Position numbers and translations under genes: made by a program. A stretch of 64,000 bases of DNA from Natronobacterium haloterrestre (GTDB taxonomy: Archaea > Halobacteriota > Halobacteria > Halobacteriales > Natrialbaceae): positions 1 through 64,000 of the forward strand of contig NZ_FOKW01000014.1 in the NCBI RefSeq assembly GCF_900112205.1, read 5' to 3'. How positions within the stretch are numbered: the stretch's first letter is position 1; every line of letters starts with the position of its first letter. A model generated the notes under the pieces. The model was not told where the DNA came from. It was given only the letters and a program-made list of their open reading frames with translations, and made no database searches. Below, one piece after another: positions 19,104-64,000 of this stretch.

Positions 19104-19121
19104 CTGCCGAGCGTTCGGCAG
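19104..19121. other. Hairpin next to tRNA-Pro
   Basis: CTGCCGA and TCGGCAG pair around GCGT. No U-run follows, so it may be a processing signal rather than a terminator. Confidence 0.4.
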
Positions 19122-19423: not shown

Positions 19424-19430
19424 ATGCAGT

Positions 19431-19504
19431 CGCCCCGGCCGGAATCGAACCGGCGACCTCCGGATTCAAAGTCCGGCGTCCCTCGCCAGCGGAGACTCCG
19501 GGGC
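19431..19504 (-). tRNA. tRNA-Gln(TTG)
   Basis: Acceptor GCCCCGG/CCGGGGC, anticodon stem CCGGA/TCCGG with loop CTTTGAA, T-loop TTCGATT, discriminator G. First tRNA of the leftward array. Confidence 0.9.
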
Positions 19505-47471: not shown

Positions 47472-47549
47472 GCCGCCACTCCGCGCTCACGACGCCGACC
47501 ACAGGCGAGTCGACGACCGACTGCCCTGCCACCACCCCCCACCAGATCC

Positions 47550-48593: not shown

Positions 48594-48598
48594 CACGC
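48563..48598 (+). repeat. Direct repeat, copy A (3' end of the Mrr-like gene)
   Basis: A 34-35 base stretch (CGAT[AG]CCCATCCCGCTGC...) that recurs at 49584-49618 with about 85% identity. Copy B has no gene attached, so it is a remnant of a duplication. Confidence 0.6.
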
Positions 48599-49196
48599 TG
48601 GATTGAGACTCGGGAAGGTACGAGTTCCGCTCGCGCCACACGTCCGTACCCGAGTTTCACGCCAGTCGATCAGCGTTCTCTCTCGAGCAGTAGCGCTCGC
48701 TCAGTAGTTACACCACTATCGTCCAATGTCAATCACACCTACCGAGTTCCGACTGTACAGCTGCCAGACCAGGTTAGTGAGCGTCTCGAGGCGCTGGAAG
48801 AGCGCATCGACGAGATCGAAGTCACACTCGAGCGCAAAGACGGCCGGATCGACGCCCTCGAGCGCGATCGTAGGCGGCTCGAAGAGCAGACGGCCGCCCT
48901 CGAAGAGCGCATCGACGAGCTCGAGTCCGAAACGACTCGCCTCGAGAAGCTGGTTGAGGCCACACTGAAGAAGGCCACCGTGAACAAGGAACGCATGAGC
49001 GAACTCCAGTCTCGCGAGTTCGAGGCTCCTTTTCCGATCTTTTTCCGGGAACGAACCCAGAATCGACGATTTCGGTCGTTTTCGGAACGCACGACTCGAG
49101 AATCTCGACGACAGTCTCGTTGTCACCAGCGTCTCAACGGTTGTAGGTGAAGCAGTCTCCCTGCTCCAGTAACTTCAACACACGAGCAACCCTACG
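48594..49196. other. Gap with a start-less coiled-coil frame
   Basis: A rightward frame covering about 48725-49149 reads HTYRVPTVQLPDQVSERLEA, then about 65 residues of coiled coil (LEALEERIDEIE, LEERIDELESETTRLEKL), and stops at 49149. No ATG or GTG start fits. It may be a truncated gene or use a non-standard start. Confidence 0.45.
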
Positions 49197-49556
49197 ATGA
49201 CTATGGACTGCCCCGCGTGCGGTTCCCCTGTCACGCTCAAGGTTGGGCCAGAACAGCCGCTTTCAACCTCGCTTTCCGACGCAGTTCTTGCGGCCGGTCC
49301 AGACGAGCGCGTCGAGGTTACACGGGACTGTTGGAACTGTGGGTGGCACGAAGTACACCAGCTTCGAGTCGAATCGATCGACACGACCGAAGGCAATGAA
49401 GCCGCTGCCAAGCGCACCGCGCTCGTTGACGAGATCACCGGCGAACTTGCGGCGATCGATGATGTAGCAACGCTCGAAGAAGCTCTTGCAGAGATTCGCC
49501 GACAGCGACAGCTGGAGCCACCGCCAAACGATACTGAGGAGGTCATTCCGGAGTAG
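49197..49556 (+). CDS. Zinc-finger protein
   Basis: A 119-residue protein. Two CxxC pairs at the start (CPACGSPVTLKVG, CWNCGWHEV) form a probable zinc ribbon. A helical acidic tail follows (LVDEITGELAAIDDV, LEEALAEIRRQR). It lies between the two copies of the 34-bp repeat. Confidence 0.65.
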   Translation: MTMDCPACGSPVTLKVGPEQPLSTSLSDAVLAAGPDERVEVTRDCWNCGWHEVHQLRVESIDTTEGNEAAAKRTALVDEITGELAAIDDVATLEEALAEIRRQRQLEPPPNDTEEVIPE

Positions 49557-49583
49557 GTGACAATTCCTTATGCTGTACCATCG

Positions 49584-49618
49584 AGAGGACGATGCCCATC
49601 CCGCTGCTGGCCATTAAC
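49584..49618 (+). repeat. Direct repeat, copy B
   Basis: Imperfect copy of the repeat at 48563, including the equivalent of the HPAAGH-stop codons (here HPAAGH with TAA). Suggests that an Mrr-like gene end was duplicated. Confidence 0.6.
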
Positions 49619-49649
49619 CCCGCAGCGCGATTGGGACGCGAGTGCCTAA

Positions 49650-49868
49650 TCAGCTAGATTCGGATCGCTGCTCGCAGAGTACTTCGATTTTCCTGGAAGC
49701 AACTACTTTGTCGATTTGACCGGCGTTCATGACAAGTTTGGATTCTCCAAAGAGCGGTAGCTGATTTCGAACTCCACTGGACAGTAGCGAGTTCCTCAGA
49801 AAAGATACCCCTCCAGAAACCGTCTGGAAGTATCCTTCTGCGAAAACTGTAATGTCCTCAAGTGGCAT
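49650..49868 (-). CDS. Possible small protein divergent to a MarR gene
   Basis: A 72-residue frame (MPLEDITVFAEGYFQTVSGG ... VVASRKIEVLCEQ). The layout against the MarR-like gene and the reasonable composition argue for it, but it could be chance. Confidence 0.35.
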   Translation of the reverse strand: MPLEDITVFAEGYFQTVSGGVSFLRNSLLSSGVRNQLPLFGESKLVMNAGQIDKVVASRKIEVLCEQRSESS

Positions 49869-49880
49869 ATAGTGGTAAGG

Positions 49881-50336
49881 ATGCCAGTCCCCGTCGACGA
49901 ACTCACAAATGACGACCCGTTCCCAGTCAAGCCGGATACGAACGAGTACGAGGCCCTCAGCTTCCTTGTCGAGCACCATGAGTACGGCTTCACTCTCAGT
50001 GAAATTGCAGCCCGAACAGACCTCAGTGAGGCAAGCACGTCAAAAGCGATGACTCGCCTCTTCGAGAACGGGCTCGTCGAACGAGCAGAAACTATCTATT
50101 ATATCGATCCGCGTCGAGCCGATGAGCTAAAACAACGATTTGCGTCGCTCGATTCAGCCGTTCGACTCTTTGAGACAGCACCTGACGACGCCTACGCCAA
50201 TCAGGGCTGGGAACAGGAAGTCCCCAGTCTCGATCGAGATGAAAGAACAGAGACTGCAAGTGAGCACTCCAAAACTGCAGAAGAACGAGCAGAAGCCCTC
50301 ATCGCAGATATCGAAGACCGCCGCGCAGAGGAGTGA
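49881..50336 (+). CDS. MarR-like winged-helix regulator
   Basis: A 151-residue protein from the ATG at 49881. Residues about 20-85 form the winged helix (YEALSFLVEHHEYGFTLSEI, EASTSKAMTRLFENGLVER, YYIDPRRADEL). The C-terminus is an acidic helix. This type of protein is often the regulator of a toxin-antitoxin pair in haloarchaea, but no toxin follows. Confidence 0.7.
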   Translation: MPVPVDELTNDDPFPVKPDTNEYEALSFLVEHHEYGFTLSEIAARTDLSEASTSKAMTRLFENGLVERAETIYYIDPRRADELKQRFASLDSAVRLFETAPDDAYANQGWEQEVPSLDRDERTETASEHSKTAEERAEALIADIEDRRAEE

Positions 50337-50411
50337 GCGCAACGGTATGGTCCATTCGGCGCTGAATATCTGGTTTTCTCACGATTACCCTCGACAAGAG
50401 TGGGAGTTGAA

Positions 50412-50971
50412 TTAGCAGATACCGTTCGTAACGGACGTCGGTACCGACGGCTTTGGAATGGTCATGCTCTGGATGTCGTATTGGGCGTCTCTCGGGAGGG
50501 ATGTGACGATGCCGACCCGCTCCGGGAATGCCGGCGGTTGCTGTTTCTGGTCGTCGTCGAACCAGCCACGCTCTTCGAGTTCGCTTCGCAGTCGCTCGAC
50601 GGCAGCCGCCTGGTCGCCGTCGCCGACGACGATCACCCCCACGGTTTGAGGTCGATTTTCCCACCTTCGACCCAGTAGTCGATATCGCCCTCGAGGATGA
50701 CTTCGGTCCCGTCCTCGAGGTCGGCGTCCATCTCCCGGTAACGGTTCGCCCAGATCATACAGGGGAGCTCGTCCTCGCCGTCGGTGAGCGTGAAGTAGAG
50801 CGCCGTACTGTTCTTGTGAAGGTCAGTGACCTCTCCGATACAGCGGACGCCGTTGAGGGCAGGCGTGTCCTGGACGACCGACGCGATCCGGTCGTTCAGC
50901 TGGGACACGCTAAGGACCTCTCTCGCATCGGGTTCGACCGCCTGCCGTTCGGTATCCGGTGCGTCCGCCAT
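50412..50971 (-). pseudogene. xseA: xseA (exonuclease VII large subunit) remnant
   Basis: Starts normally (MADAPDTERQAVEPDAREVL, then LSVSQLNDRIASVVQD) and carries the OB-fold (VRCIGEVTDLHKNSTALYF, LPCMIWANRYRE, WVEGGKIDLKPWG). The frame shifts at a five-G run at about 50640, then continues VIVVGDGDQAAAVERLRSEL, PERVGIVTSLPRDAQYDI. After that the sequence departs from the family and stops. The catalytic core is thus missing. Adding one G would restore the first junction only. Confidence 0.7.
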
Positions 50972-51046
50972 CTCCGTTTCCTAACTTCTGAACAGGAACC
51001 TCAAAAAGCTACGTTCGAGTGCCGGGGTGGGCTGCGTTACGCAGGC

Positions 51047-51214
51047 CTACAGGTCGCGGGGCTGGACCGTCTTCCGGTCGTTGGCCTCGGCACGCTCTGC
51101 GGCGTCGTCGAGCAGTTCGGCGACCTCTTCGTTGAGGGCGTCGTAGAAATCTGCCGAGACGTTGTGGTCCGAAAGTGCGTCCTTCACGGCTGCTTTGACG
51201 ATTAGGTCAGACAT
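51047..51214 (-). CDS. Small histone-fold protein (DUF1931-like)
   Basis: A 55-residue protein: MSDLIVKAAVKDALSDHNVS, then FYDALNEEVAELLDDAAERA and NDRKTVQPRDL. The helix pattern and the TVQPRDL end match the single histone-fold DUF1931-type proteins of haloarchaea. It lies 75 bases upstream of the xseA remnant on the same strand. It probably binds DNA as a dimer. Confidence 0.8.
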   Translation of the reverse strand: MSDLIVKAAVKDALSDHNVSADFYDALNEEVAELLDDAAERAEANDRKTVQPRDL

Positions 51215-51350
51215 TCCATCGCGGACTTCTCTTGTCCACCATATAAAGGTTCGAAGTTCTCACGCAGGGTTCTCGCCTCGTCGTATCGAATATTGGCCTT
51301 TGAGCACCAGAGAGAACATATGCCACCCCTCAAAAATAGTGAACGGACGG

Positions 51351-51650
51351 ATGCACGATCTAACTGGGTTCCAGCGGGACATCTTGTACGTGATCGCCGG
51401 GCTCGAGGAACCACACGGGCTCGCAGTAAAGGCCGAACTCGACGACTACTACGAACAGGAGATCAACCACGGCCGGCTCTATCCGAATCTCGACGACCTC
51501 GTCGAGAAAGGGCTCCTCAAGAAAGGCGAACTCGACAAGCGAACCAATCTGTACTCGCTAACGCAACGAGGCTTCCGCGAAATTGAGGCACATCGAGAGT
51601 GGGAAGACGAATATATCGAGTCTGCAGAAGAAGTCGCTCCGTCGACCTAG
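51351..51650 (+). CDS. PadR-family regulator
   Basis: A 99-residue winged-helix protein starting MHDLTGFQRDILYVIAGLEE, with YYEQEINHGRLYPNLDDLV and YSLTQRGFREIEAH, as in PadR regulators. It ends exactly where the next gene begins (TAG then ATG), so it probably regulates the CoiA-like genes. A TATA-like AAAAATAG lies about 18 bases upstream. Confidence 0.85.
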   Translation: MHDLTGFQRDILYVIAGLEEPHGLAVKAELDDYYEQEINHGRLYPNLDDLVEKGLLKKGELDKRTNLYSLTQRGFREIEAHREWEDEYIESAEEVAPST

Positions 51651-52736
51651 ATGCCATTTATCGCACAGTCTTCTACAGACGAGGAGGGAGGGACAGTTCT
51701 TCCTGAAGAGGTAGAGGATGGTACTGACGTCGTGTGTCCAGCCTGTGGCGGAACGATGCGACCACGGGGCCCATTTGATGATGGCCGCGCCCGCCATTTC
51801 TATCACGTTACTGCGGGCTCAGGGGATTCGACGGCCAATTGCTCCGGAGGAGAGTCGGATCCGCATCGAAAGATGAAATCCCTCGCAGTTTCGGCGTTGC
51901 GGCAGCGGTTTGACCAATATACCCGTTGCGGACCCGAGCTCACCGTCGACGTCCCCAATACGCCGACGCTTACTGATTCTCGCCGGGCAGATGCCCTCGT
52001 CGAATTTCCCGCTGATGACACAAACGACTACCTTGGGCGTGGATTGATCGTTGAGGTACAATACGCGAACGAAAACAAAGATCTCGACGCGGTCACGCAC
52101 GACTATCTCTCGGCCGGATATAGCGTCTACTGGGCCAGCCCTGACGATTTTACGAACGACCGATTCCGTATTGAGGAGATGGTCGTCGCATTCGACAAAC
52201 GGGCTGACACCGCCTTCGCAGCTTCGTGGGCAGACCCTCCAGAGGTAGATCCACCTGAGGAGTATCTAGAGCGGTTCGTGAACGGTGACTCCCTAACTTT
52301 CTCCGACCCGAATCCGGACTGTGATCACACCTGGAAATACGGAGGGAGTGACCTCCATGACCGGGATTTCTGTAAACACTGTCGGCTTGAGCGTTGGAAA
52401 GAGAGAGCTGTTGATGCCTATATCTACGATGAGTCGACCATCAAGACGAGCTCAGATCTTGCTGACAGAGCTGCTCAAGCAGCGTTTGAACAGCGAGAAA
52501 AGGAGGAGAAGAAAGAAGACCATCAACACGTCTGGGAGCCGCGAGGAGAAAACCGCTATCGGTGCCGGTGTGGGGCCCGTCTCAAAGAGCACAACGGAGA
52601 GGAGGTCATCTCAAATGATCCGTTCGAAGACTTCTCTGAGATGACGACCACGGACCCCCAGTACTGCGACCACATTTGGGAACGTGAGGACGGCTGCATG
52701 AAGTGTATCTCCTGCGGACTCGAGGACCCGCTCTAA
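51651..52736 (+). CDS. CoiA-like nuclease 1
   Basis: A 361-residue protein. An N-terminal zinc site (CPACGG at 29-34, GRARHFYHV, ESDPHRKMKSLA) is followed by a PD-(D/E)XK core: RRADALVEF with Asp114 and LIVEVQYANENKD with Glu135-Val-Gln137. This layout matches the CoiA competence-nuclease family. The C-terminal 110 residues add two or three zinc-binding clusters (CDHTW...CKHC; HVWEP...CRCG; CDHIW...CISC). Directly follows PadR. It is tandem with a paralogue that starts 68 bases downstream. Confidence 0.75.
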   Translation: MPFIAQSSTDEEGGTVLPEEVEDGTDVVCPACGGTMRPRGPFDDGRARHFYHVTAGSGDSTANCSGGESDPHRKMKSLAVSALRQRFDQYTRCGPELTVDVPNTPTLTDSRRADALVEFPADDTNDYLGRGLIVEVQYANENKDLDAVTHDYLSAGYSVYWASPDDFTNDRFRIEEMVVAFDKRADTAFAASWADPPEVDPPEEYLERFVNGDSLTFSDPNPDCDHTWKYGGSDLHDRDFCKHCRLERWKERAVDAYIYDESTIKTSSDLADRAAQAAFEQREKEEKKEDHQHVWEPRGENRYRCRCGARLKEHNGEEVISNDPFEDFSEMTTTDPQYCDHIWEREDGCMKCISCGLEDPL

Positions 52737-52804
52737 CCTGTTCCGTCTTGTACTGGCCTACAGCTGGGAGAGATTATTTGCTTACCGAGATGTTCTTTGC
52801 CAGT

Positions 52805-54028
52805 ATGCCCTTCCGCGGTCGTCGTGACGGTCGCCCGGTCGTCCCCGCCATAGTCGACGATGGAGAAGAAGTCACCTGTCCGGTATGCGGCGGGACGATG
52901 TACCCGCGATCGGCGCCGGGAAAGTCTCGACACTTCTACCACGTATCAGCCGACGCCGGCCAGCGCTGCTCGAATGGCGGCGAGTCAGAGACCCACGAAC
53001 GCGCAGTCGCCCGTGTTGAGGTCGCTCTGCACCAGCAATTCGGAGGAAACGCCCGCATCGAGACAGAGGTGGACGTCGACGTGGCCGAGGTGCCGACACC
53101 TGTGACCGAACGCCGGGCCGACGCACTCGCAACCTTTGACGATTGGAACCCTTACTTCGGGGAAGGCCTCGCCGTTGAGGTACAGCACAGTCACGAGGAC
53201 AAGGACGTCCATCAGGTGACGCATGACTATTTGGCCGCTGGGGACTCGGTCGTCTGGATACGCGCGGCAACAGTCCTTCTCGATACGTTCAACTACGATA
53301 CGATCGGTGCCGAATTTGAGCAAGACGACGGTTCTGGATACGCCCAACGAACGAGCAAAGCTAGCCGATTTACGAACTGCCAAGCGCTCCTCTACGACGG
53401 CGAACATGCGTGGGAGCGCGTGCCGCCCTATGCCCATCCCCGCGGACAGGATGACCTGATTACGTACGATATCTGTACTGCCCAGGGTTGCGAGCTACGC
53501 CGGCTTCACGAACCCGACGGCAGTTACACCTACACCGCGAGCGACGAGCACGGCCCCGACTTTCCCCTGAAAGCGCTCAAGAACGCGATTGTCCGTGAGT
53601 ACGACCGAGATCCGTTCTGGAAGTGGGCAGGAAGCCAGTACCATTCCGCACAGGTGGAGAAGCTGCTTGCGACACGACCTGAGATAGAGCGCTGTTGGGG
53701 GCCGAAGGGGTTTCACGAATGGGGGCGGCGAGAAACGCTCTGGACGAACCATTCCGACCAGCCGTTAATCGAACTCCGCGAGTGCATGTACTGTCCCGTT
53801 CGGTTAGTGACGAACCATCGAGGGCGGTCAGGACACAGTACATTCTGTCTCTACGGTCGAGAGCCTAATCTCGACTGGGACGACGTGTATTTCCAAGCCA
53901 GCCCTCCCGAGTGCGATCACTATCTCTACGACGAGGATGCGATCGAAGATTACTGCCCCAAGTGCGGTGCGACGATGGAGACTCCCGAGACAACCCTCTG
54001 GGACCATACAAGTTGGATTCCGCCCTAA
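52805..54028 (+). CDS. CoiA-like nuclease 2
   Basis: A 407-residue paralogue started at the ATG at 52805 (MPFRGRRDG), to match the MPF start of copy 1. Shared: CPVCGG, SRHFYHVSADAG, ERRADALATF, and LAVEVQHSHEDKD with the E-x-Q core. The C-terminal region has other zinc-binding pairs (CMYC, CPKCG), and a long middle (LKALKNAIVREYDRD) not in copy 1. Two diverged copies side by side suggest distinct targets or partners. Confidence 0.75.
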   Translation: MPFRGRRDGRPVVPAIVDDGEEVTCPVCGGTMYPRSAPGKSRHFYHVSADAGQRCSNGGESETHERAVARVEVALHQQFGGNARIETEVDVDVAEVPTPVTERRADALATFDDWNPYFGEGLAVEVQHSHEDKDVHQVTHDYLAAGDSVVWIRAATVLLDTFNYDTIGAEFEQDDGSGYAQRTSKASRFTNCQALLYDGEHAWERVPPYAHPRGQDDLITYDICTAQGCELRRLHEPDGSYTYTASDEHGPDFPLKALKNAIVREYDRDPFWKWAGSQYHSAQVEKLLATRPEIERCWGPKGFHEWGRRETLWTNHSDQPLIELRECMYCPVRLVTNHRGRSGHSTFCLYGREPNLDWDDVYFQASPPECDHYLYDEDAIEDYCPKCGATMETPETTLWDHTSWIPP

Positions 54029-54181
54029 AAGGTAGCCGGCCAATCAAGATGATCTACTCGATAAGCGAGGTAATCAACCATCTCTTCGAGGTTCATATTC
54101 GAAGAAAATCTGCCGAACGGTATAATTCCAGTTTGGCCTCAAGAACAGGGGATAGGAGATGGTGAACCGGGATTACTGTCG

Positions 54182-55855
54182 TTAACGAAGATCGTCGACA
54201 AGATCGCTTGCATCTCGAGTTTTCTGCTCAGGCATCTCCATATCATCGCGTTCGTACCGCATTGCCCAGTCTGTTCCAGTAGGGAGTTCCTCGCGGTCGC
54301 CGACGCCAATTGTAGCTGCCTCGCAATCCTCTTCACAGCCCCACGTAGACGACATATTCGTCTCCACATCGCGGAGACCGAGTCGAAGCGTACCCTCGGT
54401 CTTCCGTGCTACGTCCAGCGTGATCGCCAGGAACCGCCGCTGCATCAGGCCAGCGACAATCGCGTTCACCCCGATAACCGACGGATCCCTATCCTCTTCG
54501 GCTGGATCCTTCCCACCCTGCACGTAACCCCGCTCGCCACGAAACTCCGGATGGTCGGCCTCCCAGTCGACATCGTCCTGGGTCCAGACGCGCTGACACT
54601 CGAAACACGGCCAACCGGGTCCGGTGACCGCCGTTTCGACTTTCGCCTCTTTTTCTAGGACACCTTGATCGTCGGCGTGTAGGAGGCTTCCACCGTCAAT
54701 AACTGGAATACAGTGAGCGCGAGCGAGCACGTCCAGAACCTGTCGGGGGCGAGCGGCGTCGACTCCTGACATGATAAGATCACAATCCAGGAGATCAGGG
54801 ACAGCCGCATACTCGGGGTTTTGATCGACGACACTCCCGTCGACGACCCGCGTCTCAAAATTCTCAGCTGTCGCACTTCGACGGGCAACACGTTCGGCGA
54901 CCTCGGTCTTGAGGCGGTCTTGCCGAACGTCTATCCGCCGGGCACCCTGTGCGCGGTTGAAGTTCGCGCTCTCGAGATGGTCGAAGTCTACGAACACGAG
55001 TTCACCAACGCCTAGACGAGCTAAGTGTTCTGCAAGAATCGACCCGACGCCACCACAGCCCACGACGCCGACGCGAAGGTCGGCTAACCGTGCCTGGCCG
55101 TCTGCCCCCCAGAGCTGGATCGTGGAGTCCTGCTCAGCACTAGCAACACCTACACTATCGGCATCGGCATCTCGCCAGCCGGTTGGACGAACTTCCAAAG
55201 CGGGTTCGTCAGTGGCTGGACCGACAACGCGAACGTGGTCAGCGCGCGTTACCTCCGGCCCGTCGCTGGGGTCGCGCGTGGGTTCGTAGACACGCATCGA
55301 CCAGTCGCCAGCATCATTAGTGATGGCAGCAGCGAACGGAGCGCCGCCGGGGAGACGATCCCGGTCGTTCTCGTAGACGCGAGCCGCCGACGCGGTATCG
55401 GTACCGCTCTCACGAACGCCGCCGGGTTGAGTATGAATCCGAATGAGCCCGCCACCACGGCTGCGGGCACGTTCGATTGCGCGCTCGTGGTAGGCTTCAC
55501 TGAATTCGTAGCCGACAATCGAGTCGTCGCTCGATACGTCGCCATTAGAGCTACTCCCAAACAACGACCCGATTGAACGGCTTTCTGACCGATCTCCCCA
55601 AGCTGTCCCCTTCAACTCGAGGTCGTCACTGGACTCAGGGTGGACCACGTCTTCGACAATGTAACTCGCACGATAGTTGCCCGTACTCTTTGCGAGAACG
55701 GCGAACGCACCACGCTCGCCCATGCCGTAGAAAGGGTGGCCTTCACTCGGAAAGAGCACCTTCATCAAATCCTCGTGGATGTCTCGGGGGAACACGAGAT
55801 GGACCTCGTCGGCGTCGGCTGCCGTCAGCCAATCCGCTGCTGTACCCTGAGGCAT
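54182..55855 (-). CDS. JAB-E1 fusion of a ubiquitin-like conjugation system
   Basis: A 557-residue protein. Residues 15-190 are a JAB/MPN-like domain, but its metal site is changed: IRIHTQPGG (141-146) has Gln where JAMM needs His, although S150 and D153 remain. Residues 258-540 are an E1/ThiF domain: RVGVVGCGGVGS (261-272), FVDFDHLESANFNR (288-301) with the E1 Asp, Asn and Arg, and later CFEC near 416 as a candidate catalytic or zinc site. E1 enzymes adenylate the C-terminal glycine of ubiquitin-like proteins. It is the last of three tightly packed leftward genes. Confidence 0.75.
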   Translation of the reverse strand: MPQGTAADWLTAADADEVHLVFPRDIHEDLMKVLFPSEGHPFYGMGERGAFAVLAKSTGNYRASYIVEDVVHPESSDDLELKGTAWGDRSESRSIGSLFGSSSNGDVSSDDSIVGYEFSEAYHERAIERARSRGGGLIRIHTQPGGVRESGTDTASAARVYENDRDRLPGGAPFAAAITNDAGDWSMRVYEPTRDPSDGPEVTRADHVRVVGPATDEPALEVRPTGWRDADADSVGVASAEQDSTIQLWGADGQARLADLRVGVVGCGGVGSILAEHLARLGVGELVFVDFDHLESANFNRAQGARRIDVRQDRLKTEVAERVARRSATAENFETRVVDGSVVDQNPEYAAVPDLLDCDLIMSGVDAARPRQVLDVLARAHCIPVIDGGSLLHADDQGVLEKEAKVETAVTGPGWPCFECQRVWTQDDVDWEADHPEFRGERGYVQGGKDPAEEDRDPSVIGVNAIVAGLMQRRFLAITLDVARKTEGTLRLGLRDVETNMSSTWGCEEDCEAATIGVGDREELPTGTDWAMRYERDDMEMPEQKTRDASDLVDDLR

Positions 55856-55857
55856 AG

Positions 55858-56328
55858 TCAGTCCTCCTTTTCGAAGCGAGACCGCACGACCTCAGGAGCT
55901 TTCCGGAGGTCAGCGGGTTCAGTCCACGAGAAGTCCTCCCAGCGGTAACTCCAAAGGGCGACTTCGTCGACGTCGAGAGCCTCACGTGCCGGACGCCCCT
56001 TGGCATGGTCGCGATGTACGCTGTCTACCTCCTGACCGTCGTGCTTCGTGACGTAGGGGTACGTCACGATGCCATAGGGCCGTCGACCGTTCGGGAAATC
56101 GGTCGGAATTCGGAGGATAGCGAGGACCTCTTCCTGGTCGAAAACGTCGTTGACGTGGGCAGGATTGACAGTCCCGATACTGACCCATGCCCAGTCGCCT
56201 TCGACCGCAATGAGTTCGGCTTCAGGCCGCTCGTCCTGCAGTTCGGAGAGAGCATCGCGACACCTTTCGCTGAGGTGATTGCGGAGGTCCGCGCGATCAG
56301 CGTCTTCCGGTGTCTCGCCCTCACTCAT
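55858..56328 (-). CDS. E2-like protein of the ubiquitin-like operon
   Basis: A 156-residue protein (MSEGETPEDADRAD start). The core reads ERPEAELIAVEGDWAWVSIG, LAILRIPTDFPNGRRPYGIV then YPYVTKHDGQ, and WEDFSWTEPADLR, like the prokaryotic E2 family E type seen next to multi-ubiquitin proteins. The only Cys (residue 23) is not where an E2 nucleophile would be, so it may be a non-catalytic partner. Overlaps the upstream gene by eight bases and ends 2 bases before the E1 gene. Confidence 0.55.
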   Translation of the reverse strand: MSEGETPEDADRADLRNHLSERCRDALSELQDERPEAELIAVEGDWAWVSIGTVNPAHVNDVFDQEEVLAILRIPTDFPNGRRPYGIVTYPYVTKHDGQEVDSVHRDHAKGRPAREALDVDEVALWSYRWEDFSWTEPADLRKAPEVVRSRFEKED

Positions 56329-56950
56329 ACGCGATCTTCCCCCCATCGCTGGTCGACTCGAAGAACGTTCGGTTCTTTTCGCCGAGGTCCAGATCCCGAT
56401 CAGCCGGGAACGCCTGGTCTTCCTGACGGTTCCCGAGAAGGCCGTCCATCGGGAAAAGCCCGAGTTCGTCGGGATCCTTCTTGCCGGCGTCCAGCAGGAT
56501 GGTTTCGACGGATACCGAACTGTCGTCGTATCGGTCGACAAACTGCTGATTGACGTACACGACATGGCCAATGGTGCTGAACTCCAGAGGTTCGACAGTG
56601 TCCGCGAGGTTCTCCAGACGCTCCGTGAGGTTGTCGAACTTCTGAAGGAGGCTGGTGTTGCCATCGGGAACCTCCTGTCGAATGTCCCTCGCACGCTCAC
56701 GCTCTGCGCTGACGATAGTCTTCGTGCCCACGAGCGCGTCGGTATCGTGGGGGTCGGCGTCGTCGGCCCAGATTTTGATGGCTCCGATCGCCTCCTTCAT
56801 ATGTGATAGTCGACGGAAGACCTCGACCGGGACGTCGTCCTCAATAGCCTCGATGGCGGACTGTACCGGGTTGACTTTGCCGGCAACTTTCTTCGTGGTA
56901 GTCGTACTGTGCTCGTCTGCGGAGTCGGCGGGAGTGTTGCGTTCACTCAT
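56321..56950 (-). CDS. Ubiquitin-like protein with an N-terminal extension
   Basis: A 209-residue protein. An N-terminal helical region (NPVQSAIEAIEDDVPVEVF, SLLQKFDNLTERLENLADTV) is followed by a C-terminal Multi_ubiq-like fold: HVVYVNQQFVDRYDDSSVSV, TILLDAGKKDPDELGLFP, FESTSDGGKIAYE. The Gly-Gly near the end is followed by five residues, so cleavage would be needed before conjugation. First gene of the Ubl-E2-E1 operon. Confidence 0.65.
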   Translation of the reverse strand: MSERNTPADSADEHSTTTTKKVAGKVNPVQSAIEAIEDDVPVEVFRRLSHMKEAIGAIKIWADDADPHDTDALVGTKTIVSAERERARDIRQEVPDGNTSLLQKFDNLTERLENLADTVEPLEFSTIGHVVYVNQQFVDRYDDSSVSVETILLDAGKKDPDELGLFPMDGLLGNRQEDQAFPADRDLDLGEKNRTFFESTSDGGKIAYE

Positions 56951-57647
56951 GGTTGTGGGTCGTCGCGCTTAGCCCGGCGACGTGGGGCCGACCGAAATGA
57001 TACATTCGCCGCTGTGAACAGATCTATGAACGGGCCGAGACCACGTGGTCACTCAGTACCCGTCAGGGATCCGCTCGGCGGGCGAACATCCGTGGAAGTC
57101 ACTGCCGGATACCCCGGCTCTCTCGTCGGTCTTGGTGGATTCCCGCCGTCCCCCTGCCGCAGAATTGCGGTGATCGGGGGATGCCTACGTAGCGGTGGGT
57201 AACCAGCCCAGGAACGTGTAGCCGGCCCCCACTGAAAAGGGTTTTGCTGAGTGGAACTATACTCGCCTCTTTCTCGTATCAGGCATATATGAACCGTGGG
57301 GTGGGGGTTTTCGAACTGGCAATTTCCACTTTCACTCCGCTGGGAATAGCTTTTTAAATAGGGGTATTCAGCCATACAGAGCTGTCAACCGCGGGTCGAA
57401 AACCAGCGCCTTAGCTGCTGAACGTTGCGGTTTGGTGGGTAGCAATAGAGCCCCCACCGCTACGTAGGCAGGCATCCATATGGCATAGGTGCTAATAAGA
57501 CTGTCGGCCGCCCCTACGCAGTCTTGCGATTTCCACTCGAAAGCATAGGGGGATCGCTATACTTAAACTGTATTTTCCAGCGAAAGTGAATCGTCAAACA
57601 CTGCTTTAGTCCCCCGGTTTGTGAGCAGTGAGTACGAGAAGTTGACA
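56951..57647. other. Gene-free region with an 18-bp inverted repeat
   Basis: About 700 bases without a gene. TGCCTACGTAGCGGTGGG at 57182-57199 and its exact inverse at 57453-57470 enclose about 250 bases of AT-richer DNA, like a small non-autonomous element. One ORB-like word (TTTCCACTCGAAAG then a G-run) lies at about 57528. The recombinase gene ends next to it, so an attachment site could lie here. Confidence 0.5.
57182..57470. repeat. 18-bp perfect terminal inverted repeats around 289 bp
   Basis: Exact inverse copies of TGCCTACGTAGCGGTGGG at both ends. No coding content inside. Candidate MITE or recombination site. Confidence 0.65.
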
Positions 57648-58901
57648 TCAAACTGATTCCGCTGAAAATTCGATCTGATCTCCTACCTCTTCAAGAGCCT
57701 CTGTAGCAATATCCCCTAACTCGCCAGCTTCAATATGCGAGTAGCGCTCTCGGACCATCTCTTCGGAGTTATCGAGATACCGGGCCGCCACCGTGTATCC
57801 AAACGCGCGGACAAGTACCTCCCCCATCCCCCGTCGACCACCGTGCGGAGCAAGATAATCGTGTTTCGGATGGTCGATATCGATCTCTGCGGTCTCCGAG
57901 AGCCGTTGGAGAACCGACCGTGCTCCGTCCGTCGTGATCGACGTCGGCCGAATGTCCTCATCGAGCGCCAGCAGGAGGTCACGGGCGTATTCGTCGCGGC
58001 ACTCAGTAATTGCTTCTAGGGGTTTCCCTCGTTCGGCTAACTCTTCCTCGATGAGTTCTGCGAGCGTCCGTTGGTCGAACGTCGGAAACACCGGCCAGCG
58101 CTCCGTCGGTGGGTCCATCAGCTGGCGATAGCTTCGCAGCGGAGAAATCACTGGGTCAGGGAGACTCGCAGCGTCCCATTGCTGTTTCTTTCGGTAGACG
58201 TCCATACTCCCGTCGTCGAGGGAGAGATCCTCCCAGCGGACGCCACGCCGTCGCGGGTCGTTCGGATCCCGGAGTAGTTCCCCAACGCGGACAGCTGTGT
58301 ACGCAAGGACGAACACCAGAGCCCGGTCACGAGCCGACTTTAATGCGGCGTAGCGTGCTCGCTCCTTGTCGAGGGAGGCAGTATCCTCCGGGAGTGTCGT
58401 GTACGCCTCGATGGCCTCGCGAGCCTGTTCGTCGACGTGGCGGGTGAGGGCGTGGCGCTGTTCGGACGTCCAGGCCTGCTGGTCGCCGGGCTTGCGGCCG
58501 TCGTCCTCCGGTAGCGGCGCCATCGCACTCGCCCGCTGCGCGTAATGCGCCTCGAGATACCCTTCGTTGACGCACCAGCCACACCACGCAGAGATATAGC
58601 GGTAATAGGTTTGTACCGTGTTCTGCTTGAGCCCCCGGTCTCCTCCGAGATGCCGAGCGTACTCACGGAAGACGCGTTCATCGAGATCGTCGAAGGTCGG
58701 CTCGCGGTCGACGTCGTCGGGGGCGATCCCGGTCCAATCGTCGTCGCCTCGGTGGCCGGCGGCCCACTCGGCGAACCGTTCGAGCTCGCGTGCAGCGTTA
58801 CGTCGATAGTTCCCACCGTCGCCGCCGCGGCCTTTCCCCTTGTCTTGGAGGTAGCGCTCGAAGCTGTCGTCGAGCGGTGTCGAAAGCGCTCGGTCAGGCA
58901 T
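57648..58901 (-). CDS. Tyrosine recombinase (XerC/D-like)
   Basis: A 417-residue protein. An N-terminal core-binding region (FREYARHLGGDRGLKQNTVQ, YYRYISAWCGWCVNEGYLE) precedes a catalytic domain with Arg in YTAVRVGELL, H-x2-R in APHGGRRGM, and Tyr in VRERYSHIE. A haloarchaeal plasmid-type recombinase, likely for integration or dimer resolution. A 12-bp inverted repeat lies about 120 bases upstream. Confidence 0.85.
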   Translation of the reverse strand: MPDRALSTPLDDSFERYLQDKGKGRGGDGGNYRRNAARELERFAEWAAGHRGDDDWTGIAPDDVDREPTFDDLDERVFREYARHLGGDRGLKQNTVQTYYRYISAWCGWCVNEGYLEAHYAQRASAMAPLPEDDGRKPGDQQAWTSEQRHALTRHVDEQAREAIEAYTTLPEDTASLDKERARYAALKSARDRALVFVLAYTAVRVGELLRDPNDPRRRGVRWEDLSLDDGSMDVYRKKQQWDAASLPDPVISPLRSYRQLMDPPTERWPVFPTFDQRTLAELIEEELAERGKPLEAITECRDEYARDLLLALDEDIRPTSITTDGARSVLQRLSETAEIDIDHPKHDYLAPHGGRRGMGEVLVRAFGYTVAARYLDNSEEMVRERYSHIEAGELGDIATEALEEVGDQIEFSAESV

Positions 58902-59381
58902 TCACCGGCCCTCCACCGCCCTGCGGGCCCGGTCTCGGTGCCTCTACCCTGGGGGAAGCGCCGTCGTGAGGCGGTTGCAGCATTCGTGCTTCACCGACGG
59001 CGGCGGGGTACTTCAAAGTGGTCATGATTACGAGCATAATCAGGACCACATTCTGTATTCGGCCCATCGGGAGAATTCGAGGAACTGAAGTCTCTTAGCG
59101 CCGGAATTCCGCACTACAGGAAAACGTATATCGTATATCGCTATACAAAATCTCGGTCCTCGTTCTGCCACAGTTTCGGAAGATGGGCTAGTTTTGGGTT
59201 GAGTCGGCGACTACTTGAGAGGATTTCGTGCGGTTAGTACCCGATATCAGCACTGAGTGGCCTCAAATTCGGAGCGTACATCAACAATTACACGGAAATC
59301 GGCGATTCCGGACAGCGTTGCCACTCAGCCGGGTCAGACCCCGGTTGACCTTTTATTATGTTTCAGTTCCTATGACTATCC
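58902..59381. other. Intergenic region with an operator-like palindrome
   Basis: No gene. Contains the inverted repeat at 59019-59048 and an AT-rich CGTATATCGTATATCG stretch at about 59123-59145, a likely promoter area. Confidence 0.45.
59019..59048. repeat. 12-bp inverted repeat upstream of the recombinase
   Basis: TGGTCATGATTA and TAATCAGGACCA (one mismatch) around six bases. Could be an operator for the recombinase gene or a recombination core. Confidence 0.55.
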
Positions 59382-59732
59382 ATGCCCCACGACAATACCA
59401 GGGCATCGGCGACTTCGTGGCATAGTGCGAAGCGTCGTGCACGCGACCAGAAGTACAACACGAAGGTTGAGGTTCCGAAGGCATTCGTCGCCGGCGTCCC
59501 GCCGGAGTTCGAACGCTCACTGCTCTCGCTCCCGAACGGAGCGAAAGCGGTCTATAGGGACCAAGAACCGACAGACAGTTTCCAGATCCGTGAATTCGAC
59601 GATCACTACACGATCGAGATGGATCGGCACAATCCCGAAACAGGGAATGCAGTGGCCCATGCTGTCCAAGACGCACCAGCATACACCGCAGTCGGCCTTG
59701 CTGTCTTGGGCGGCGCAGCACTGTTTAGCTAA
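59382..59732 (+). CDS. Hypothetical protein with a hydrophobic C-terminus
   Basis: A 116-residue protein (MPHDNTRASATSWHSAKRRA start). Middle: KVEVPKAFVAGVPPEFERSL, REFDDHYTIEMDRHNPETGN. End: YTAVGLAVLGGAALF, a weak tail anchor. TATA-like TTTTATTATG lies about 25 bases upstream. Unknown role; its orientation is opposite to its neighbours. Confidence 0.55.
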   Translation: MPHDNTRASATSWHSAKRRARDQKYNTKVEVPKAFVAGVPPEFERSLLSLPNGAKAVYRDQEPTDSFQIREFDDHYTIEMDRHNPETGNAVAHAVQDAPAYTAVGLAVLGGAALFS

Positions 59733-59866
59733 CCACAGCACTCCCTCGTTTTCTCCCACCGAGTCAGTTACTCCGTAGCGGTAGCGTTCGGATCCTCGAG
59801 CCACCCGTCGAGCACGCCTAGCGCATCCTCAGCGACGATCCGAGTCAACATTGAACATGCCAGACG

Positions 59867-60289
59867 CTACTCGAAGTCGTAGCCCCATTCCCGAAGTTGA
59901 TCCGCGACATCATCGATTCGCTTGAGGCCGACAAGTAGCGCTGCCTCCCGGAGGTCAGCCTTCTTGACCGACTCGCCTAGCTCGCCCTCGACATCGGACT
60001 TGACTTGGCGCTGTCGATCGAGCGTTGTATCCTGCAAGTGTAACTGCACAGTTTTCGCGCGACCATCCGTGATACTATCGCGCTCGTAGATCCAGGGGAG
60101 GCCACTGCGGCTCGAGTCGCTCTCGTCGCGACCGTCCTGCTGCTCGATCGCGCGATCGGGCTGCGGATCGACTTCGACTGACGAGCCCATTGACTCGAGC
60201 CCGTCAACGTCGTCTTCTCCGGCTTTGTCGTCCTCGGTGCCAGCACCAAACGGATTATCGCCGCTCGCACCTTCCTTGAAGCCCGTCAC
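59867..60289 (-). CDS. Small partner protein of ParA
   Basis: A 140-residue acidic protein. A flexible N-terminus (about 1-60) precedes a C-terminal part with DGRAKTVQLHLQDTTLDRQR and LREAALLVGLKRIDDVADQL, which could be a ribbon-helix-helix-like DNA-binding unit. It overlaps the ParA stop by ATGA. By position it is the ParB-like centromere binder of the partition operon (inference). Confidence 0.65.
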   Translation of the reverse strand: MTGFKEGASGDNPFGAGTEDDKAGEDDVDGLESMGSSVEVDPQPDRAIEQQDGRDESDSSRSGLPWIYERDSITDGRAKTVQLHLQDTTLDRQRQVKSDVEGELGESVKKADLREAALLVGLKRIDDVADQLREWGYDFE

Positions 60290-61167
60290 GCCTCAATCAC
60301 CTCATCGTCTTCCAAGCTGCCTGGCTCCGGAGGATTCGGTGCCTTGAGACCGACCTGGTCCTCAAGGTAACGAGCAATCCGGTCGAATTGCGCCAACGTC
60401 TTGACTTCGTGGTCTCGGGTGCGCGCGCGATGTTTACGAACGTACTCGAAGGCCGAACACTGCTGCTTCCAGCACCCCTCCATCATTGACGTCCGGTCGC
60501 CGATCACCTCAGGTGTAGGGAGGTCGATCTCGTCGATCAACTCCTCCTGGTCGTTCGTATGCTTGAACCCGTTCGGTACCGCAGCCAGTACACCAATCTC
60601 GATGTTCAGCTGGTCACCGAAGTTCGTCGCAAGTTGCTCAAGACCCTCAACTGAGGCCCGCCCCTTCGCGGAGGGTTCGACTGGGATCACGAGGTTGCGC
60701 GTCGCGTAGATCGCGTTGTAGAGATGGTCGGACTCGGTAGCCGGCGGATCGCAAATCAATACGTCGTACTTCTCGGCGATATCGGCATCACGAAGGACGC
60801 GTTGCAGCTGGGCGTAGATGTTGTACGAATCCCCCAAGTCCTCCGCTTTCCGCTGCTCGCGCTGAAGGTGGCTCGAGAGATCAGAGAGCATGTTGTGTTC
60901 CGGGACGATATCAACACCCTCCGCCGTTCGGACGAGGTCTGCGAGCGATCCCTTTGGACTGCGGACGATATGGCGTACGATATTGTCGGCGTCACTATTG
61001 GCGCGATCGTCGTCAACGCCGAACAGTCGACTGAGGTCACCGTCCTGCGGATCCAGCGGAACGACCAGAACGTCAAGGCCGGCTCGAGCGTGTGCAACAG
61101 CTAGGTTCGCCGTCAGCGAGGACTTTCCCACGCCGCCTGCTTCGCTGTAGACCGTATACGAGAGCAT
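60286..61167 (-). CDS. parA: ParA-family partition ATPase
   Basis: A 293-residue P-loop ATPase. Deviant Walker A EAGGVGKSSLTANLA (residues about 9-23), Walker A' in LVVPLDPQDGDLS, and Walker B in DVLICDPPA. This is the ParA/Soj type that positions replicons. The signature starts with EAGGVGKS where KGGVGKT is usual. It is followed by the small partner gene with a four-base overlap and preceded by palindromic repeats at 61225-61259. Together they form the partition locus of the replicon. Confidence 0.88.
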   Translation of the reverse strand: MLSYTVYSEAGGVGKSSLTANLAVAHARAGLDVLVVPLDPQDGDLSRLFGVDDDRANSDADNIVRHIVRSPKGSLADLVRTAEGVDIVPEHNMLSDLSSHLQREQRKAEDLGDSYNIYAQLQRVLRDADIAEKYDVLICDPPATESDHLYNAIYATRNLVIPVEPSAKGRASVEGLEQLATNFGDQLNIEIGVLAAVPNGFKHTNDQEELIDEIDLPTPEVIGDRTSMMEGCWKQQCSAFEYVRKHRARTRDHEVKTLAQFDRIARYLEDQVGLKAPNPPEPGSLEDDEVIEA

Positions 61168-61224
61168 ACTCTCATGGATGAATTTCTCCGATAAGTAACT
61201 TTGCCAAGCAAGCTACCTAAGTAA

Positions 61225-61259
61225 GATAACTAAGATAGTTATCTAAGATTCTTAGATAA
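61225..61259. repeat. Nested palindromes upstream of parA (centromere or operator candidate)
   Basis: GATAACTA/TAGTTATC around AGA (61225-61243) and a perfect TTATCTAAGA/TCTTAGATAA around one T (61239-61259) overlap each other. CTTAG/CTAAG words recur up to 61284. This AT-rich stretch 60-90 bases before the parA start is where a parS-type site or autoregulatory operator would be. Confidence 0.7.
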
Positions 61260-61284
61260 GGACCATAGCTAAATCTCTTAGGTG

Positions 61285-61437
61285 AGGAAGGCGAAGCCCG
61301 CAACGAAGCCCGACTCAAGAACAACAGTGCCGATCAGCACTTTCGATACGTCGAGAAACACGACCTCGGCGAGAAGGTAGTCTCCACAGAACACCCCCAG
61401 CGCCTTATGGCGATTCAACAGAACCCTACGTTCTGAT
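61285..61437 (+). pseudogene. C-terminal gene fragment
   Basis: A start-less rightward frame of about 50 codons ends at TGA 61437: GEARNEARLKNNSADQHFRY, then VEKHDLGEKVVSTEHPQRLM. It reads as a genuine protein tail. Parent not recognised. Confidence 0.4.
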
Positions 61438-61471
61438 CTTTCGAGGGAACCGTTCAACTACAGTGTTCTAC

Positions 61472-64000
61472 TCACTCGTTCTTTGGAGTATACCGAGTCT
61501 CTTTGACTTCGACTCCCTCCTCAAAATCGGCTGTATGGACACGAACTTTGGATTGAACACGCTCTTCGGCCTCTTCACGAGCGTAGAGTACTTTCGCTGG
61601 ATTCTCGATACGGCGGATAAATGGGTCACCAGCCGCATCGACACTCAGGTTCCCGACCACGTATAGCCAATACCGTTGCTGAGTAGAATCACACTCGGCG
61701 GTGCGCCACTCGTTGAGCGTCATTGACCCACGGCCATTGTCGCCGGTACTGGCTTTAATCTCAATGAGCCGTTCGGCCTCGTGGCTTTCTGGATGGACAA
61801 TTAGGAGGTCGAAGCCAGGATACCGTTTCGAGATACCGGCTTCAGCTGCCAAATCCGTTAGTACTGTATCCAGCAATTCGTCATCAGGGTCTCGTGTTTG
61901 CAATGTCTGACTGACGTCGAAAATATATCGACCCGGGTCGCTCACATCGTAGCATTCCTTCAATCGTTGGGCTTCGAAAACGGTTACCAGATCAGTACCG
62001 ACTGATTCGATCTCGTCGTCTCGAGTTGCTCTATTCGGTGATGCTCTCTGATTATGCGTCCGTCCATTCGATCTGTCTCCAGTCCCATCGTCAGTATCAG
62101 TTCCAGTAGTCGGTTCTGGCCTTTCACCCGCCCCCTCAAGAATTTCGGTCCCTTCGAGAGCGAGCGATTCGACCTCGTATAGCTGCGAGGGCGAACTGGT
62201 TGCAGTCGATGACTCAGACTGACTGTCGGTCGTAGGTGCCCCTATACTATCGTCCGAAACCCGTTCTGCGTCAGATTTCTCAGTGTGGGCCACCTCCTGT
62301 TCGAACGAAGTCGTGCCACTGAACGTGGTAGGATCCACGTCGTCGAATCCATAAGACACTGATTTACCCTTGAATGCCGCCTGTTTTCGGTCGACTGTTT
62401 CGTCATCGAGATCCGCATATCGTGCATAGCTTTCGAGATCTCCGTTCCGGCTTGATTGGATTGCCAAGAGTACTGCCTCTACGTTCGGGAACGCCACATG
62501 GTCACAGAGGAGCTTTGCTGCACGGCGGCAGAGATTGTCGCCATGGTCTGCCTCGGGGAGTGCCAGTAGCGGTCGCGGTCGCTTGTGAGTCCCATCATAG
62601 ATGTCGACGAGTTCGTCCCCCTCATTTGGATCAACAAACTCGACGGCTGTTGCGTCTTCGGGGAGACTCCGATGGTCGAGTTCGAGACGGCGGACGACCT
62701 GTAGTTCCTCGACGACGCAGACGTTATCGACAAACGTTCGAAGCGCACGGAGATCGTCATCAGCCTGCTCTGGTCGGTCTGCCTCGAGTCGGGCTAGTAG
62801 ATACGGCGCTGCACGGCTCAACCACCGATGTAGTTTCGAGGTTTCGTCGCTCTCTTTGCCCATCTGGATCTCGCGAACCAGGTGAGTCGTGAAATCCTGT
62901 AAGCCAAACCAGTCACCGAATGCCCCCGCATCACGCTCAGAGAGCAGAAACGTCGGTGCCCCCAGTGAGCGTGCTTCTTGGAAGGCACTATCCGAACGAA
63001 CAAATACGGTCTCGGAAGCCGGATGAAGATCGAACCCGTTGTCAGACTTTGCGACGACTGCTGTTTCCGCAAGGGTTTCCCGCGCATCCTCCCATTCGTC
63101 GGAGAGTTTTGTCACCGATTGCTGTGTCGACGGAAGCCGACGGGTGAGATTCCGATACACCGTCTGGATGGAGCGCTTCGCTGCGCCGATCCGTTCGGAG
63201 CGTTCGTCATCAGGGAACTGTTCTCTGATGAACGTCGCCAGATTCTCAACGACGCGACGAGCGTCCTCCGGTCGGAGCTCAGTGTCTAGATCCGATCTGA
63301 TTCCGAGCTGATCGGCAAGTACTGACTCGTCGTCGTCTGAACCGATCGTAATCACGGGGAGGAGGTTGATCTGGTCGTCACGACCCAATTGAAGTGCTAC
63401 GCGTTGGGTTGCTCGTGACTCCTGCCAGACCGCTGTAGGGCGGTACGAACCACTATCAGTCGGAATCCACTGACGCGATCGGAGCTGCCAGAGCCATAGG
63501 TTCCGTCCGATGGCGTGTCGTTCCTGAGAGGTAGGAATGCCGTTTCCTCGATCGATGACGTTACTGTAGCTGGTGCGGTTGAGACCAACCACAACATCCG
63601 AATACCGCGAGAGATCAGTTGCACCGCCGGGTGGCGTCTCCCACCAACACTCGAGGTGACTGAAGAGGCGACCAGCGAACGAGGCATCCGCTCTCGCTTT
63701 TGCGACGAACGTATCGATGTTCTCGAACCCGTGGAGGCTATAAAGGGACTTACTACTGAACTCCTCGAAAGGATACTCGTCTAGCGATTCGAGAAGATAC
63801 TCGCGATACTCTTGCCATCTAGTCGAATCGACGGTATCCAGTGCGGAGGGGTGGTCCGGCGCTGTGAAGTCCTTGACCTCGGAATAGTACTGCTGTTGAC
63901 TTGGTCCGAACAGTGGTGTCAAATGGACGTGCTCGCGGACGCCAAGCCAAGTGAGAAACTCCCACCAAGCAGTTTCGGGCGATTGGGAGCTCTCGTCGGA
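61472..64000 (-). CDS. Large DUF3883 (NO VEIN C-terminal)-type protein, partial
   Basis: At least 842 residues; the frame is still open at the window edge (reading ETAWWEFLTWLGVREHVHLT before the first internal TTG start), so the N-terminus lies outside. The C-terminal 150 residues match DUF3883: YPGFDLLIVHPESHEAERLI then EIKASTGDNGRGSMTLNEW and RYWLYVVGN. This is a PD-(D/E)XK-like fold with D...E-x-K. A low-complexity linker (about 570-640 of the visible part) precedes it. Proteins of this type usually carry an Hsp90-like ATPase N-terminus and appear in defence islands. The N-terminus cannot be checked here. Confidence 0.7.
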   Translation of the reverse strand, partial: SDESSQSPETAWWEFLTWLGVREHVHLTPLFGPSQQQYYSEVKDFTAPDHPSALDTVDSTRWQEYREYLLESLDEYPFEEFSSKSLYSLHGFENIDTFVAKARADASFAGRLFSHLECWWETPPGGATDLSRYSDVVVGLNRTSYSNVIDRGNGIPTSQERHAIGRNLWLWQLRSRQWIPTDSGSYRPTAVWQESRATQRVALQLGRDDQINLLPVITIGSDDDESVLADQLGIRSDLDTELRPEDARRVVENLATFIREQFPDDERSERIGAAKRSIQTVYRNLTRRLPSTQQSVTKLSDEWEDARETLAETAVVAKSDNGFDLHPASETVFVRSDSAFQEARSLGAPTFLLSERDAGAFGDWFGLQDFTTHLVREIQMGKESDETSKLHRWLSRAAPYLLARLEADRPEQADDDLRALRTFVDNVCVVEELQVVRRLELDHRSLPEDATAVEFVDPNEGDELVDIYDGTHKRPRPLLALPEADHGDNLCRRAAKLLCDHVAFPNVEAVLLAIQSSRNGDLESYARYADLDDETVDRKQAAFKGKSVSYGFDDVDPTTFSGTTSFEQEVAHTEKSDAERVSDDSIGAPTTDSQSESSTATSSPSQLYEVESLALEGTEILEGAGERPEPTTGTDTDDGTGDRSNGRTHNQRASPNRATRDDEIESVGTDLVTVFEAQRLKECYDVSDPGRYIFDVSQTLQTRDPDDELLDTVLTDLAAEAGISKRYPGFDLLIVHPESHEAERLIEIKASTGDNGRGSMTLNEWRTAECDSTQQRYWLYVVGNLSVDAAGDPFIRRIENPAKVLYAREEAEERVQSKVRVHTADFEEGVEVKETRYTPKNE

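Follow-up and report, generated by a model that had tools for sequence, protein, structure and literature searches.

The 64,000-nucleotide stretch of DNA analysed here (the window) carries an operon that is likely to represent a haloarchaeal branch of the Bub pathway, in which a ubiquitin-like protein (Ubl) would be conjugated via an E2-like protein in a thioester-free manner. The operon consists of three tightly packed genes on the minus strand, encoding the Ubl, the E2-like protein and a JAB-E1 fusion (Table 1). The Ubl and E2 genes overlap by 8 bp, and 2 bp separate the E2 gene from the JAB-E1 gene. This three-gene set probably attaches the Ubl to other proteins. An earlier note on this DNA had described three packed leftward genes, and the ORFs, strand and coordinates were as given there when we checked them. 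Its reading of these genes as a Ubl, E2-like and JAB-E1 set is borne out by the Pfam domains of relatives, by fold models and by PDB matches; the lack of a beta-grasp or of an E2 fold, which it had named as evidence against that reading, was not observed, both folds being present in the models.

Table 1. Features of the operon and its surroundings (positions in the window)
Feature	Position	Strand	Basis or remark
Ubl (BubA-like) gene	56321..56950	-	209 aa
N-terminal four-helix bundle of the Ubl, residues 18-119	56594..56899	-	AF2 model; in some haloarchaeal relatives, not others (alignment)
Beta-grasp (ubiquitin-like) domain, residues 129-200	56351..56566	-	Foldseek
C-terminal GG-KIAYE tail, residues 203-209	56324..56344	-	GGKIA common to window, DL31, L034-L036
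E2-like (BubB-like) gene, no catalytic Cys	55858..56328	-	156 aa; AF2 model and 9eae_C BubB match
Ser127 codon, [W/F/Y]-S-x-x-[W/F] motif, place of E2 catalytic Cys	55948..55950	-	Invariant column; aligned with Ser of bacterial BubB WSRH
JAB-E1 fusion (BubCD-like)	54182..55855	-	557 aa; PDB matches 9ea4/9ea5/9eav; ThiF 3e-27
JAMM motif H141-T-Q143-P...S150-x-x-D153, second His replaced by Gln	55397..55435	-	Sequence, alignment
E1 (ThiF) adenylation domain; CxxC zinc cysteines inside, CxxxC partner pair further downstream	54419..55120	-	Pfam, alignment
Conserved 249-bp stretch from arm 2 to Ubl start, possibly structured leader RNA	56951..57199	-	Alignment
Arm 2 of long-range inverted repeat	57182..57199		Repeat search
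Match (1 mismatch) to TTTCACTTTCA, Halobacterium UV-B promoter motif	57324..57334	+	Points away from operon, TATA-like box behind
Second conserved noncoding block, holds arm 1	57411..57552		Conservation
Arm 1 of long-range inverted repeat	57453..57470		Repeat search
Integrase-like gene (SAM-like domain)	57648..58901	-	Common to DL31 plasmid, within block 53843-59048

Full JAB-E1 relatives (E <= 1e-60) were found in 16 of 392 Halobacteria genomes, at 17 loci, and many of the contigs that carry them are of plasmid size. A single-protein scan of genome contigs had returned no relatives, whereas this genome search did. The 18 haloarchaeal loci retrieved with their flanks (two of the E2 genes were recovered only by a second ORF pass) and the halophilic archaeon DL31 all have Ubl, E2 and JAB-E1 in this order, separated by a few bases. 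Within the genome of the window (4.5 Mb, 31 contigs) JAB-E1 is present in a single copy, on contig 17, and two more matches correspond only to the E1 domain of other proteins. The window JAB-E1 is 93.2% identical to Halar_0658 of the DL31 plasmid phalar01, and block 53843-59048, which comprises the operon and the integrase-like gene, is common to the window and this plasmid at ~90% nucleotide identity. Nei-Gojobori dN/dS values between the window and DL31 were 0.09 for the Ubl, 0.11 for the E2 and 0.10 for JAB-E1 (0.13 for the JAB domain alone and 0.07 for the E1 domain alone). Against L034 to L036 the range was 0.08-0.35, with the highest values for the Ubl; these ratios are rough, synonymous sites being near saturation in the wider comparisons. 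The operon is under purifying selection, and its carriage among haloarchaea is patchy and mobile. Together, the recurring gene order and the dN/dS values of ~0.1 against DL31 for all three genes argue that the operon is more than a chance arrangement.

Pfam detected ThiF alone in the window JAB-E1 and had no credible match in the Ubl and E2 of the window, and the family assignments therefore rest on the domains of relatives and on structure models. Among the relatives, Multi_ubiq was found in 5 of 16 Ubls (1.2e-7) and Prok-JAB in 6 of 13 JAB-E1 proteins (5e-7); Prok-E2_E was only marginal in the E2s (0.063). Because the window E2 and Ubl, used alone or as profiles, gave only chance matches to PDB sequences, fold comparison was needed. 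The AlphaFold2 model of the Ubl (mean pLDDT 89.9) has a four-helix bundle, a beta-grasp domain and a loose tail. Foldseek matched the beta-grasp domain to the bacterial multi-ubiquitin proteins 8u38, 9cd2 and 9d5b (probability 1.00, rmsd 2.7-4.1), and the assignment rests on this program since the VIA match list was filled by helical bundles. These models, together with Multi_ubiq in the relatives, agree with the earlier description of a Multi_ubiq-type protein with GG near its end. The five residues that follow GG in the window Ubl (...SDGGKIAYE), previously regarded as odd, are real but not exceptional: all 16 aligned Ubls end 2-6 residues past the last Gly, and several bacterial Bub Ubls do likewise. 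As such short tails occur throughout the family, a tail-processing step is likely to be general to it and not peculiar to the window Ubl.

The AlphaFold2 model of the E2-like protein (15 family members, pLDDT 86.5) had as its top Foldseek match chain C of 9eae, the Citrobacter BubCD(D104A)-BubB structure, with a probability of 1.00. VIA aligned 127 of 128 residues with BubB (Z 11.3, rmsd 3.3 Å), versus Z scores of at most 7.5 for classical E2s and RWD proteins. Met1 and Ser127 are the sole residues invariant in the haloarchaeal E2s (n=15), none of which has a Cys at the E2 catalytic site. By hhalign, W126-S127 falls on W-S of the bacterial WSRH motif (probability 90), and the same Ser is found in 7 bacterial E2s and in 2 E2s of haloarchaeal group C. 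The spacing between this Ser and the next Trp is 8 in the Acidiphilium E2, and that between Cys85 and Trp93 of human UBE2D is likewise 8. Hence, the absence of a well-placed Cys, listed before as an odd point, is true of the window protein but is the rule for the family, which has an invariant Ser in its place. The archaeal E2s keep the Ser of WSRH and the preceding aromatic residue, and the His is replaced (by R129 in the window). Since actinobacterial E2s do not clearly keep this His either, it is probably not a defining feature of Bub. As of 2010, E2 enzymes had not been detected in archaea (Makarova and Koonin, 2010).

Against the catalytic view, Ser127 could be structural. In that case the protein, while belonging to the same Bub family, would be an RWD-like, non-catalytic scaffold that binds the Ubl or the E1, and the Ubl would go directly from the adenylate to the target. 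Such a scaffold would fit the judgement of Iyer et al. (2006; PMC1779556) that Cys-less domains of this kind are catalytically inactive and RWD-like, and RWD domains are indeed among the weaker structural matches of our model. It fits less well with a Ser that is the only invariant residue besides Met1 and lies at the place of the catalytic Cys, and with the separate group-B operons, most of whose E2s carry a Cys in the region matching Ser127. We therefore regard a purely structural Ser127 as possible though rather unlikely, and favor a role of this residue in Ubl transfer.

The best PDB match of JAB-E1 was Citrobacter BubCD (1e-17 over the E1 domain), compared with 1e-11 for the next non-Bub match. 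It includes a weakly aligned JAB stretch in which H141, Q143, S150 and D153 fall on the H, H, S and D of the BubCD JAMM site. Thus, the Gln for His that the earlier note had seen at the JAB metal site is real: the window protein keeps E47, H141, S150 and D153 and has Q143 at the position of the second zinc His. E47, H141 and D153 are present in all 13 aligned group-A proteins and S150 in 12 of them. Within group A, Gln143 occurs only in the window, L034, L035, L036 and DL31, where it is fixed, and since these five members form one branch (100/100) the change from His to Gln most simply happened once and was then kept. The dN/dS of the JAB part against DL31 indicates that the domain is maintained despite its changed metal ligand, and the HxQ subclade raises the question whether a JAMM domain works with Gln at the zinc position or acts as a binder. 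In the E1 domain, the nucleotide-binding motifs are intact, as had been claimed; the named residues of GCGGVGS, D290/D292, N298/N300/R301 and K316 are invariant in 13 relatives. Group-A JAB-E1 proteins have five invariant or nearly invariant cysteines, C358 in the Rossmann domain and the zinc-type C417, C420, C507 and C511. Read against the standard E1 topology, the alignment places no Cys in the E1 crossover region, the place of the catalytic Cys. The altered JAB, the Cys-less E2 and the absence of BubE (see below) might suggest a decaying or purely binding system in which conjugation has been lost. We consider this improbable, as all three genes have low dN/dS values against DL31, including the JAB part, and Gln143 became fixed while E47, H141, S150, D153 and the E1 motifs were retained.

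In an E1 tree of 37 proteins, the group-A haloarchaeal JAB-E1 proteins form one clade (100/100) whose sister group consists of actinobacterial JAB-E1 proteins of Rhodococcus, Mycobacteroides and Clavibacter (100/99). The more distant haloarchaeal E1 operons of group B (L052-L058, L060, L062 and L063) and group C (L059 and L061) are placed elsewhere, with proteobacterial proteins. The E2-like genes of group B mostly encode a Cys near the domain end (e.g. YCIH, WC), its Ubls end in FG or FG plus a few residues, and some of its operons adjoin small membrane proteins. Occurring in the same taxonomic order and having mostly Cys-keeping E2s, the group-B operons provide a contrast set beside the Ser E2s, which in turn, with one invariant Ser in many diverged proteins, constitute a natural test set for non-thioester Ubl transfer.

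The nearest characterised system is the Bub pathway, reportedly described by Ye et al. in 2026, with structures of Citrobacter BubCD and BubB. Citrobacter Bub (PDB 9ea4, 9ea5, 9eae) resembles the haloarchaeal operon in its JAB-E1 fusion, its Cys-less E2 of the same fold with the same Ser, its Multi_ubiq-type Ubl and its packed, mobile operon, and bacterial Bub operons have the same order Multi_ubiq, E2/UBC, ThiF. Unlike Citrobacter, in which the Ubl and E2 are fused, haloarchaea encode them in separate genes; the haloarchaeal operons are archaeal, lack the DUF6527 protein BubE, do not keep the proteobacterial WSRH His and have an upstream inverted repeat instead of CapK/CapS. The window subclade differs in addition by its HxQ JAB and by the four-helix bundle on its Ubl. 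DUF6527 was found in the Citrobacter, Mesorhizobium and Methylomagnum operons; it is absent from the window genome and over the cut-off in none of the 18 carrier genomes. As the Clavibacter and Acidiphilium operons have no DUF6527 in their annotation either, this protein may not be defining for Bub. The actinobacterial Bub-like operons (Rhodococcus L069, Mycobacteroides L066, Clavibacter L070) have separate Ubl, E2 and JAB-E1 genes, as in haloarchaea, and their Ubls end in GGVA or GPVA. They differ in that the Ubl apparently has two beta-grasp repeats (by sequence), the JAB motif is an intact HSHP and no upstream inverted repeat was found.

As we read it, the counterpart of Bub in Iyer et al. 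(2006) is their fifth operon type (row 6e), which like the haloarchaeal operon combines JAB-E1, multi-Ub and a Cys-less E2/RWD-like domain and was listed for proteobacteria, cyanobacteria and actinobacteria, not archaea (PMC1779556). Bil (BilABCD) likewise comprises Ubl, E2, JAB and E1. However, BilB uses Cys138 (CEHH motif) as catalytic residue and the E1, BilD, is a two-domain pseudodimer (PMC11354881); membership in Bil was rejected on the Cys-less site of the 15 haloarchaeal E2s. Type II CBASS (Cap2/Cap3) was also rejected, as the E1 is fused to JAB, the E2 is separate and no CD-NTase was recognised in the flanking ORFs; CBASS E1-E2 models gave only partial, E1-domain matches to JAB-E1. 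The ThiF/MoeB-type E1 domain, and the presence of SAMP/UbaA in haloarchaea, would also be expected of a sulfur-carrier or cofactor/SAMP-like E1-Ubl system without conjugation through an E2. Yet SAMP/UbaA, although an archaeal Ubl and E1 too, has no E2, no JAB-E1 fusion and a MoaD-like Ubl, whereas the operon has a co-located BubB-type E2-fold protein, a JAB fusion and tails after the Gly, and its UbaA score is 40 bits against a cut-off of 450. This reading is thus very unlikely. No earlier description of an archaeal Bub branch was found in the literature searched, the two main Bub papers lying outside it, and priority is uncertain. Under the present assignment, archaea too would have a Bub pathway, linked to that of actinobacteria as its sister group, and some haloarchaea are genetically tractable.

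From homology, predicted folds, motif conservation, selection and mobility we infer the following chemical steps, Ser acceptor, target and biological role. The Ubl tail would be trimmed to GG, and the E1 domain would adenylate the Gly carboxylate with ATP. A suitable Cys is lacking both in the E1 crossover region and in the E2, and the Ubl would therefore pass from E1 to E2 without thioesters. Bub transfer is reported to avoid Cys thioesters, a point that we use only as a lead. The Ubl would most likely be placed on the invariant Ser127 as an oxyester, or Ser127 would organise transfer straight from the adenylate, after which the E2 would conjugate the Ubl to its target. The fused JAB, intact in most members, could process and deconjugate; in the window subclade, because the second zinc His is Gln, it may be weakened, altered or a binding module only. 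The operon may serve as a mobile defence or stress response, possibly damage-regulated. For Bub operons, protection against phage has not been demonstrated (PMC13373217).

Helicase genes accompany the operon on the related plasmid segments that carry it in L042-L045 and L048. The segments of L042, L043, L044 and L048 are near-identical, with a DEAD/MZB (MrfA/HRQ1-like) helicase gene 32-33 bp after the operon, followed by more conserved genes. A PLD-like gene precedes the operon in L042-L044, so that the L042 operon lies between this gene and the helicase gene (33 bp), and L045 has an Argonaute gene near the operon. These surroundings fit defence or stress islands and prove neither. A search of viral contigs gave two short partial matches only, and hence no sign of a viral origin. 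Elsewhere in the window, the protein encoded at 61472-63922 is large, contains a NOV_C domain and weakly resembles TmtA defence models; its gene may be another defence gene of this contig. Thirteen tRNA genes lie on one strand within 6 kb (13581-19505), an unusual cluster on what is apparently a plasmid-type contig.

Of the 17 haloarchaeal operons, 11 (the window, DL31, L034-L037, L039, L041, L046, L047 and L051) have an inverted repeat ahead of the Ubl gene, and one of the same kind lies upstream of the group-C Ubl in L061; it is absent in L038, L040, L042, L045, L049 and L050. The arms are 152-411 bp apart and contain perfect runs of 16-23 bp, save in L035, where the arms match but for a single internal G-T. 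At the group-A loci, 190-240 bp separate the end of the near arm from the Ubl start. There are nine different arm sequences, which differ pairwise at 5-14 of 18 positions (2 of 18 for L034/L036), whereas within each locus the arms pair at 18 of 18 positions, except for the G-T in L035 and one mismatch in L046. The inner half of the arm (CGGYGRGG) is more constant than the outer half. The window and L039 have identical arms and proteins that are only ~40% identical, and the closer relatives of L039, L041 and L051, have other arms. A chance origin was rejected, as shuffled sequence gives at most 12-14 bp. Away from the operons, the ~490 kb scanned contained perfect repeats of at least 15 bp only in L054 and at window positions 9470-9908. 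The window's arm sequence was not found intact elsewhere in its genome, and Rfam detected nothing in positions 47000-64000. An integrase attachment site is considered unlikely, as most loci have no recognised adjacent integrase gene. So is an ORB-type replication origin: the G-rich ends face inward, opposite to an apparent ORB pair at 9485-9908, and there is no adjacent Orc1 gene. The latter pair, a 23-bp perfect inverted repeat with its arms 378 bp apart, lies upstream of gene 10586-11863, whose product, read by eye, we take to be Orc1/Cdc6, and is probably a plasmid replication origin.

Six loci could be aligned over the stretch from arm 2 to the start codon. For this stretch RNAalifold predicted 65 pairs, 15 of them changed on both sides, with a small covariation term (-2.0 of -64.3) and several pairs that break; a leader RNA structure is therefore possible. 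In other genomes, similar DNA lies mainly beside the same operon, two further matches being short and marginal. A 108-codon open frame (57049-57375) spans the conserved upstream element; its intact form is apparently not retained in relatives, and it therefore probably does not represent a gene.

The motif TTTCACTTTCA is located upstream of UV-B-induced radA1, top6B and other genes in Halobacterium (PMC2556686). With at most one mismatch it is present between the arms in seven loci (the window, DL31, L035, L039, L041, L051 and L061; exact in three of them), in every case on the opposite strand from the operon, against a background of 0.03 per 700 bp; the seven loci are not independent and represent about three lineages. 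In the window's genome it also lies 59 bp before a gene with a product read as RadA, and elsewhere it precedes genes for RadA-like and Top6B-like proteins of other genomes (names by reading). A stricter form of the motif was found in 209 of 293 Halobacteria genomes, and a reversed control was almost without matches. In the window, the motif is followed downstream by CTTTTTAAATA, directed away from the operon, and this arrangement would give rise to a divergent transcript with the same CCCACCGCTACGTAGGCA that the operon leader contains. It is conceivable, though rather unlikely, that haloarchaeal Bub is an RNA-linked, damage-controlled, serine-based Ubl conjugation system, with a divergent ncRNA and/or a structured leader that share an 18-23 nt element, varying by locus while its two copies stay matched, under a DNA-damage-type promoter. 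Of 544 bacterial Bub operons, 219 lie beside CapW or CapH+CapP and 59 beside CapK+CapS, which are DNA-damage-sensing regulators (PMC13373217). None of these was recognised among the neighbouring genes. Where bacterial Bub commonly, not universally, has Cap regulators, the haloarchaeal operon instead has a UV-type promoter motif upstream, which together with the repeat suggests an independent archaeal solution to damage control of Bub. At L061:8156-8525, the inverted repeat of the group-C Ubl operon (TGGACCTAGCCCGGTGGG) occurs together with two copies of the UV-type motif.
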